Below, piece by piece: positions 23,163 to 24,622 of a stretch of DNA of 64,000 nucleotides. The first letter of the stretch is position 1; every line of letters begins with the position of its first letter. The notes beneath the pieces are model-generated. The model had not been told where the DNA came from. It searched no databases and worked only from the letters and a program-made list of their open reading frames with translations. The DNA is taken from NCBI RefSeq assembly GCF_014695395.1, contig NZ_JACJOF010000004.1:186001-250000 (forward strand), given 5' to 3'. Source of the stretch: Nodosilinea sp. FACHB-131. Its GTDB lineage: Bacteria; Cyanobacteriota; Cyanobacteriia; Phormidesmidales; Phormidesmidaceae. The position numbers and the translations under genes were made by a program.

Positions 23163-23789
23163 ATGGCCGACGGTTTTGAAATCTGCGATCGCGACCTCAC
23201 CCCCGACCTGCTGGCTCGCTATCAACAGGCTAGTGCGATTGCCTGCGACACCGAGACCATGGGGCTACTGCCCCAGCGCGATCGCCTTTGCCTGGTGCAG
23301 CTCTCCGACGCCGAGGGCTATGTGTCGGTGGTGCGCATCGAACTTGGCCAAAAAGAAGCCCCTCTACTCAAAGAACTACTGGAAGCGCCGAACGTTCTTA
23401 AGCTGTTTCACTTTGCTCGGTTCGATTTAGCCACCCTCAAGCACAATCTGGGCATTACCGTGGCCCCGGTGTTTTGCAGCAAAATCGCCAGCAAACTGAG
23501 CCGCACCTATAGCCCCCGCCACGGCCTCAAAGAGTTGGTTAAAGAGTTAGAGGGCATCGAGCTCGACAAAACCGCCCAAAGCTCTGACTGGGGCAACGCC
23601 ATGAATCTTTCCGACGAGCAGCTGCGCTACGCCGCTAATGACGTGCTCTACCTGCACAGCATTCACCAAACCCTGACCGCCATGCTCAAGCGCGAGGGCC
23701 GGTGGGAGCTAGCGCAGGATTGTTTTAACTGTTTGCCCACCTTCGTCGCCCTAGATTTGCTTCAGTACACAGGGGTGTTCGAGCATTAA
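23163..23789 (+). CDS. RNase D-like 3'-5' exonuclease
   Basis: A DEDDy-family exonuclease acting on RNA or DNA 3' ends. The 208-residue protein shows exonuclease motif I (AIACDTETMG), motif II (LFHFARFDLATL) and motif III (YAANDVLYLH, with the Tyr and Asp five apart). It consists of the nuclease domain only; the HRDC domain of E. coli RNase D is missing, as is usual for the short cyanobacterial form. The ATG at 23163 has an AGGAGA sequence 7 bases upstream. Followed by the CP12-like gene. Confidence 0.9.
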   Translation: MADGFEICDRDLTPDLLARYQQASAIACDTETMGLLPQRDRLCLVQLSDAEGYVSVVRIELGQKEAPLLKELLEAPNVLKLFHFARFDLATLKHNLGITVAPVFCSKIASKLSRTYSPRHGLKELVKELEGIELDKTAQSSDWGNAMNLSDEQLRYAANDVLYLHSIHQTLTAMLKREGRWELAQDCFNCLPTFVALDLLQYTGVFEH

Positions 23790-23912
23790 TTGATTATCCC
23801 CTTTCCTCCCTCGGGAGGCTGCGCTAAGGCTTTGTTTAAGGAACGGCTGCTGCGATCGGGAGACAGGTAAGATAGGCCCATACCTTGAAGATGATCTACG
23901 AGGAAAACGACT

Positions 23913-24146
23913 ATGAGCGTTGACAGCAAGGATTTCCAAGACGAACTGCAAAAGGCGATCGACTACGCCCATCAAATCACCGCCGAAAAGGGCGAAACCT
24001 CTGCCGAAGCCGCTGCCGCCTGGGACGTGGTGGAAGAGATGCGAGCCGAGGTGTCGCACCAGCACCAGATTCCTAAGAAAACCGGCTTTGATCGGTATCT
24101 AGAAGACAATCCTGAAGCGCCTGAAGGCTTGATATACGACACTTAA
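23913..24146 (+). CDS. CP12-family Calvin cycle regulator without cysteines
   Basis: CP12 normally forms a redox-controlled complex with GAPDH and phosphoribulokinase. The 77-residue protein has the family core AAAAWDVVEEMRAEVSHQ and the tail FDRYLEDNPEAPEGLIYDT, matching the C-terminal region that enters the GAPDH active site. All four regulatory cysteines are replaced: Thr and Ala at the N-terminal pair, Leu and Gly at the C-terminal pair. A disulfide switch of the usual kind is therefore not possible. The gene lies alone between an RNase D-like gene and an RRM gene. It could be a redox-independent paralogue if a normal CP12 exists elsewhere in the genome. Start ATG at 23913 with GAGGAAAACG upstream. 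Confidence 0.85.
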   Translation: MSVDSKDFQDELQKAIDYAHQITAEKGETSAEAAAAWDVVEEMRAEVSHQHQIPKKTGFDRYLEDNPEAPEGLIYDT

Positions 24147-24313: not shown

Positions 24314-24622
24314 ATGTCACTCTACGTTGGTAACTTGTCCTACGATGTCACTCGCGAAGATTTAGAGCGGGTGTTTGCAGAATACGGCGACGTTAAGCGG
24401 GTCAGCCTGCCCACCGATCGCGAAACCGGTCGCCCCCGAGGCTTTGCCTTTGTGGACATGGCCGCTGAAGCTCAAGAAGACACCATCATCGAAGCCCTTG
24501 ATGGAGCCGAGTGGATGGGCCGTGAATTGCGGGTCAACAAAGCTCGCCCCCGCGATGACGCTCGCAGTAGCAGTGGCGCTGGCGGCGGCAATAGTGGCAA
24601 CTACCGTCGCACCGGCTTCTAA
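24314..24622 (+). CDS. RRM-type RNA-binding protein
   Basis: A small cytoplasmic RNA-binding protein of the cyanobacterial Rbp group, often cold-induced or involved in mRNA localisation. The 102-residue protein has one RRM with RNP2 LYVGNLSYDV at the start and RNP1 RGFAFVDM near residue 44, followed by a short Gly/Ser/Arg-rich tail (SSSGAGGGNSGNYRR). A leader of about 150 bases with AT-rich sequence precedes the gene, which is common in cold-regulated genes of this type (inference). A clear terminator follows. Confidence 0.93.
   Translation: MSLYVGNLSYDVTREDLERVFAEYGDVKRVSLPTDRETGRPRGFAFVDMAAEAQEDTIIEALDGAEWMGRELRVNKARPRDDARSSSGAGGGNSGNYRRTGF

Follow-up and report, generated by a model that had tools for sequence, protein, structure and literature searches.

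A cysteine-free CP12 maintained by selection in Nodosilinea belongs to a subfamily with many members in hydrogenase operons

Textbooks present CP12 as the Calvin cycle's thioredoxin switch, and a CP12 gene encoding no cysteine at all raises two questions, namely, where such a protein comes from and what it can still do. Here we address them for one gene in a window of 64,000 nucleotides from Nodosilinea sp. FACHB-131 (contig NZ_JACJOF010000004.1, positions 186,001–250,000; all coordinates below are those of the window). The features of the locus are as follows.

23163..23789, + strand: upstream neighbour rnd, an RNase D-like 3'-5' exonuclease, adjoining the gene in the relocated group (genomes where the gene follows rnd)
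23866..23876, + strand: conserved promoter-like GGTAAGATAGG element with a -10-like TAAGAT, 47 nt before the start, from comparison of upstream regions
23913..24146, + strand: CP12-0 coding sequence, 77 aa without cysteine; an intact ORF kept in 25 of 26 genus genomes
23925..24062, + strand: predicted two-helix hairpin, residues 5–26 and 31–50 (AlphaFold2 model, mean pLDDT 78.5)
23979..24011, + strand: residues 23–33 (T..A), where the N-terminal cysteine pair has been lost, from alignment columns
24018..24041, + strand: CP12 core AWDVVEEM, residues 36–43, read from the translation; PMC3906501 gives the core as AWD_VEE
24099..24128, + strand: positions of the lost C-terminal cysteine pair, residues 63–72 (L..G), after which Leu73 replaces the usual Arg, from alignment columns
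24314..24622, + strand: downstream neighbour, an RRM RNA-binding protein, adjoining most relocated copies of the gene, L041 and L125 excepted

The ORF is intact, running from the ATG at 23913 to a stop ending at 24146, and a Shine–Dalgarno-like GAGGA lies ahead of it at 23900–23904. The sequence-only reading had placed its product in the CP12 family, and this assignment holds: the protein matches PF02672 (CP12) with 79.9 bits (cut-off, 22.7 bits) over profile positions 2–70 of 70, and its best E-value against solved CP12 chains is 2.4e-14. PF02672 is the sole Pfam family on the protein, hence CBS domains are absent from its N-terminus; no NCBIfam model matches above the cut-offs. The core AWDVVEEM is present, as had been claimed, and alignment with 37 distinct four-cysteine CP12 domains places Thr23, Ala33, Leu63, and Gly72 in the switch columns, precisely the four replacements named earlier, so that the motif of the C-terminal pair, CxxxPxxxxC, is lost at both ends (L63, G72). 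The claim that the GAPDH-facing tail is conserved was stated too strongly. The protein does still end in NPEAPEG-x-x-Y-D, but both C-terminal cysteines and the arginine following the fourth one are gone (canonical E-C-R-x-Y-D versus E-G-L-I-Y-D, with Arg changed to Leu), and a Cys4 mutant of CP12 is reported to lose GAPDH binding (PMC9514657).

A frameshift or a sequencing error hiding the cysteines was considered and rejected, since a close, full-length, open orthologue is present in 25 of the 26 genus genomes and none of the 25 proteins contains cysteine; the close matches include named records under such names as Nodosilinea, Leptolyngbya, and Phormidium. Among 18 distinct relocated genes, the median dN/dS is 0.029 (maximum 0.104; 150 pairs; median dS about 1), and the hox-linked cysteine-less copies yield a median of 0.033 (15 pairs, six genes); among 25 distinct cysteine-less genes, 48 of the 77 columns are invariant. 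That the gene is a functionless, decaying paralogue is extremely unlikely given these ratios and the open frame in 25 genomes, even if two observations point the other way: the gene is absent from one genus genome (G021, 87% complete), and a further copy, from the metagenome-assembled genome of Nodosilinea sp. WJT8-NPBG4 (L067), otherwise well conserved, has TAG at the Trp37 codon, due to either a mutation or an assembly error. Thus, the cysteine-free CP12 is not an error, and it is kept by selection rather than decaying, as the sequence-only reading had supposed.

The same reading had allowed that the class might not be new, and it is not. CP12-0 is one of eight published CP12 types, distinguished by the presence or absence of the two cysteine pairs and of the core (PMC3906501), and its exemplar in the legend to Figure 1 of that paper is Leptolyngbya_CP12-0 (the type of Stanley, Raines and Kerfeld 2013). 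The window protein is stand-alone, has the core, and has neither cysteine pair; it therefore belongs to this known type. "Leptolyngbya" is the older name that Nodosilinea nodulosa PCC 7104 (L073) bore when it was sequenced, and the exemplar (IMG gene 2509777734) and the window gene, likened by name and definition alone, are probably the same orthologue. The section on this type in PMC3906501 is silent on hox genes and on a two-step loss of cysteines. The new part is the probable origin of the gene: by its sequence relationships, the cysteine-free CP12 belongs to a subfamily with many members in hox operons.

It is not the only CP12 of its genome. The proposed search for a second one with cysteines found a CP12 with all four on another contig (G000:C5:163326-163535); it shares the family and the core with the window protein, whereas the two are only 41% identical, differ in the cysteines, and fall into separate regions of the tree. 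Phosphoribulokinase (PRK) of this genome also has all four cysteines (Cys 19, 41, 230, 236).

A profile of the subfamily run against 388 genomes identified 34 members with at least 145 bits, the next CP12 scoring 107 bits; G024, which lies outside this sample, was added from the genus search, giving 35 subfamily genomes. The best-scoring CP12s outside the subfamily are mostly CBS-CP12. In a tree built with the four cysteine columns removed (69 usable columns; 97 of 165 inner branches open), the subfamily forms one set with SH-aLRT 100, plus one stray row (L057), and lies on the CBS-CP12 side, next to CBS-CP12 of family codes f34 and f11 (support 87). The four-cysteine domains mostly form another set (33 of 37, support 96), with four elsewhere, and 19 CBS-type rows share the canonical side of the root, which has weak support, as do the deep forks. 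With moderate confidence, we consider the window protein to be a stand-alone CP12 that either arose from CBS-CP12 or is its sister. The latter type (PDB 5nmu, 5npl, 5nvd) is the neighbour of the subfamily in the tree, and many of its members reside in hox operons; it differs from the window protein in having CBS domains and in the N-terminal pair, which is present in 65 of 68 distinct CP12 domains of the CBS type. The solved CBS-CP12 chain 5nmu retains the C-terminal pair and is thus an imperfect model for the window protein.

Two further groups of CP12 domains were observed. A divergent group (L246, L260, L270, L217, L268, L271, L269, L248, L286-L288, L290, L300, L309-L312) consists nearly entirely of long CBS-type ORFs, several of them next to hoxH, and lacks the usual Cys4; its members share a W/F-C-S/A/G-G motif a few residues past the Cys4 place, possibly providing a replacement cysteine. 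A third CP12 paralogue clade (LEHARRL...AIAWETVEEL; L122, L123, L289, L291-L299, L301-L307), found in many genus and family genomes, comprises 19 distinct domains, with the N-terminal pair in none and Cys4 in 15.

The hox-operon location of many relatives is not visible within the window, where the gene sits between rnd and the RRM gene, not between hoxY and hoxH; in near relatives it also follows rnd, the usual order being trpB-rnd-cp12-RRM. Moreover, a search with PF00374 found no NiFe large subunit in the window genome, the same search being positive in five of 14 control genomes. In 11 of the 35 subfamily genomes, the gene lies between hoxY (upstream) and hoxH (downstream) on one contig, both within the genus (G001, G002, G014, G015, G018, G024) and outside it (G026, G033, G092, G193, G336). 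The same arrangement is seen in four named records (L075-L078), whose proteins are identical to some of those from the eleven genomes. In G006, hoxY precedes the gene, the contig ends, and hoxH starts another contig, which is probably the twelfth case. The distance from the hoxY stop to the gene is 20–50 nt in ten of the eleven cases (157 nt in G092), and that from the gene to hoxH, 23–298 nt. The gene order in L106 is hoxE-F-U-Y-cp12-hoxH: Pfam finds a small-subunit-type protein and a NiFe large-subunit protein there, with hoxE-, hoxF-, and hoxU-type genes upstream; neither HoxY nor HoxH of L106 has an NCBIfam match over the cut-offs, the best models being Vhu-type hydrogenases. We take these genes to be hoxY and hoxH from Pfam, the adjoining hoxE/F/U-type genes, and general knowledge of the operon. 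Neither hoxY nor hoxH was found in the 9–10 kb around the subfamily gene in G159, G032, G227, G298, and G381. Within the genus, HoxH is found at E 1e-60 in 11 of 26 genomes, seven with the linked gene (counting G006) and four with hox apart from CP12-0 (G005, G013, G016, G025), and 14 genomes, the window genome among them, have CP12-0 without HoxH at this threshold.

The upstream regions also differ between the two settings. The element GGTA[AC]GAT[AG]GG occurs at -47 to -53 in 12 of the 18 distinct CP12-0 genes of the relocated group and in none of six hox-linked ones, which suggests that a promoter was gained after the move; a consensus scan around the window gene found neither a sigma-70 promoter nor a terminator. 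A phage origin of the gene found no support: no phage-borne relative was confirmed in viral_contigs and no PHROG matched at E 0.01.

In order to see the linkage across the class, 126 hoxH neighbourhoods were scanned with a CP12 profile built in this analysis (threshold 45 bits), one from each of the 125 genomes, out of 388, with HoxH at E 1e-140, and one from G024; most span 7.4 kb, eight about 10 kb, and 16 of the rest are shorter at contig ends. A CP12 or CBS-CP12 domain scoring at least 45 bits is present in 44 neighbourhoods, from 15 of 26 family codes, the family count being the fairer measure because of the shared ancestry of the neighbourhoods. The CP12 density (151 matches in 57 genomes) predicts about 0.47 such neighbourhoods among 126 by chance. 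All 44 domains are on the hoxH strand and 40 lie between hoxY and hoxH, 28 of these in ORFs longer than 150 aa and 12 alone; of the other four, three are downstream, and one is upstream in a neighbourhood where hoxY was not found. Pfam identifies two of the long ORFs, in L230 and L231, as CBS-CP12, and the others, judging by length, are likely of the same kind. Seven more neighbourhoods contain weak CP12 matches below 30 bits, and 75 of 126 contain none. Weak-match ORFs precede hoxH in L239, L255, L262, and L264-L266, the one in L262 being, by Pfam, a CBS protein that carries just the first half of the CP12 domain; G013, G016, and G025 have such an ORF in a hox cluster whose hoxH is more divergent (69–71% to the query).

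Cys4 is absent in all 44 distinct hox-linked domains. Nevertheless, the explanation that hox linkage caused this loss found no support, since, of 38 distinct CBS-type domains with no hox gene beside them in the sequence covered, 31 also lack Cys4 (seven have it). These 38 were chosen by hand among the matches listed and are not an even sample; the loss thus belongs to the CBS side of the family.

A putative CBS-CP12 is alr0765 of Anabaena PCC 7120. In a published hox table of this strain it follows hoxY and is annotated as a hypothetical protein (PMC4915528). No CP12 is listed in the described hox region of Lyngbya (PMC2674450), and the hox genes of Nodularia are reported to be contiguous, with no additional ORFs (PMC3610870), which counts against a universal link of CP12 and hox. 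Our literature search found no paper tying CP12 or CBS-CP12 to hox genes; an earlier mention is possible (Stanley 2013, McFarlane 2019, Yu 2020, Hackenberg 2018).

The distribution of cysteines within the subfamily points to an ordered loss. Ten of the 35 subfamily genomes are outside the genus, and in the ten distinct proteins that they encode the N-terminal pair is intact, with Leu/Val and Ala/Ser in place of the C-terminal one, which is the pattern of the CP12-N type (stand-alone, N-terminal pair only); the arginine is retained there, with E-A-R-x-Y in nine of the ten and E-S-R in one. The window protein differs from CP12-N in having lost the N-terminal pair too, as have the genus members generally, where this pair is replaced by Thr (once Ser) and Ala. 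The divergent genus member G018 (3.2 Mb) has T-A-L-A with EAR retained, and the other 24 distinct genus genes have Gly at the fourth place and EGL. We suggest that the C-terminal pair would have been lost before the subfamily spread and the N-terminal pair at the base of the genus, and that afterwards, within a single branch of the genus, the gene moved to its place behind rnd, while the hydrogenase disappeared or gave way to another. This order is deduced from sequence states, neighbours, and distribution, the branching within the subfamily being weak. Outside the subfamily, the N-terminal pair is also gone in two CBS-type CP12s, L052 (A/A) and L338 (S/A), hence such a loss probably happened more than once.

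What could a CP12 without a thiol switch do? An AlphaFold2 model (22 CP12 rows) predicts helices at residues 5–26, 31–50, and 58–65 without a disulfide; it superimposes on CBS-CP12 5npl with 1.3 Å over 49 residues and, with 3.2 Å over 69 residues, on the CP12 chain of 6kez, a plant GAPDH/CP12/PRK complex. The six top structural matches are CBS-CP12 and CP12, including CP12 in GAPDH or GAPDH/PRK complexes, with Z of 6.1–6.9, a modest value that a common arrangement of helices could also give; unrelated helical chains from the same comparison (VIA-align; best Z 5.7) were set aside. In the reading that we prefer, the helical hairpin and the AWDVVEEM core would still form without a disulfide and bind PRK, restraining it independently of thioredoxin, with control exerted by the amount of protein rather than by thiol state. 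Tight binding of GAPDH would be unlikely, because both C-terminal cysteines and the following Arg are gone, so PRK may be a likelier partner than GAPDH. In the hox setting, the protein would be made together with a hydrogenase working in dark, anoxic, reducing cells, and a redox-blind brake would keep the Calvin cycle shut down under conditions that prevent canonical CP12 from closing its disulfide switch. That CP12-0 came from a hox-linked subfamily near CBS-CP12 and acts as a thiol-independent PRK partner set by its abundance is a tentative proposal, to which we give a little less than an even chance.

Published experiments bear on this proposal in both directions. CP12 of Synechococcus PCC 7942, naturally without the N-terminal pair, is reported to assemble into the complex with PRK and GAPDH, and CBS-CP12 to inhibit PRK with no ternary complex formed, although a CBS-CP12 did not replace canonical CP12 (PMC9514657). 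On the other hand, CP12 with Cys1 changed to Ser reportedly fails to bind PRK, and replacing all four cysteines left a strain unable to grow on glucose, same as the deletion (PMC9514657), while in a second study the four-cysteine mutant brought back glucose growth in part, after a long lag (PMC9623430). These mutants imply that a cysteine-less CP12 might bind little. Besides, as the window genome has no hydrogenase, the anoxia rationale cannot account for the retention of CP12-0 there.

The genomic linkage itself invites another explanation, in which the subfamily arose to regulate, assemble, or sense the state of the Hox hydrogenase or its NAD(P)H diaphorase, a different client being acquired later by the relocated copies. 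The position between hoxY and hoxH, on the same strand, in 40 of the 44 CP12-bearing neighbourhoods fits it, as does the impaired state on glucose of Synechocystis both without hoxH (PMC9195167) and without cp12 (PMC9514657, PMC9623430), the conditions differing between these studies. We still regard it as unlikely: the CP12 core is kept in sequence, 14 genus genomes retain CP12-0 without HoxH, and 82 of 126 hoxH neighbourhoods have no CP12 with at least 45 bits, so a nearby CP12 is not needed by Hox.

Alternatively, both enzymes could be the targets. A constitutive scaffold, the kind of partner that the sequence-only reading had suggested, binding GAPDH and PRK whatever the redox state and always locking a share of both, would explain why the tail still ends in NPEAPEG-x-x-Y-D and why the residues around the hairpin are conserved; given the loss of both C-terminal cysteines and of the Arg after Cys4, together with the behaviour of the Cys4 mutant towards GAPDH, it seems quite improbable. 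A competitor, or buffer, would occupy surfaces of PRK or GAPDH without completing the complex and so limit canonical CP12. The presence of canonical CP12 in the same genome and the retained hairpin with an altered tail agree with this role, which would, however, need expression comparable to that of canonical CP12, and we consider it a very doubtful candidate.

Returning to the PRK-directed brake, it may be part of a wider pattern, proposed here with some reserve, since we judge it somewhat less probable than its opposite. CP12-type regulators would recur in cyanobacterial bidirectional-hydrogenase operons, where a CP12 or CBS-CP12 made with HoxYH and lacking the GAPDH thiol switch would coordinate hydrogenase-driven fermentation or redox poise with PRK, and the window CP12 would be a descendant outside the operon that has outlived the hydrogenase as a thioredoxin-independent brake. 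The hox neighbourhood of the relatives suggests a tie between hydrogen metabolism and the control of carbon fixation, and it may hint at the condition in which these proteins originated, namely, dark, anoxic, reduced cells. That a genus keeps a cysteine-free CP12 under strong selection shows that CP12 can be useful without the thioredoxin switch, and the linkage to hox opens the role of CP12-0, and that of many CBS-CP12 proteins, to direct test.
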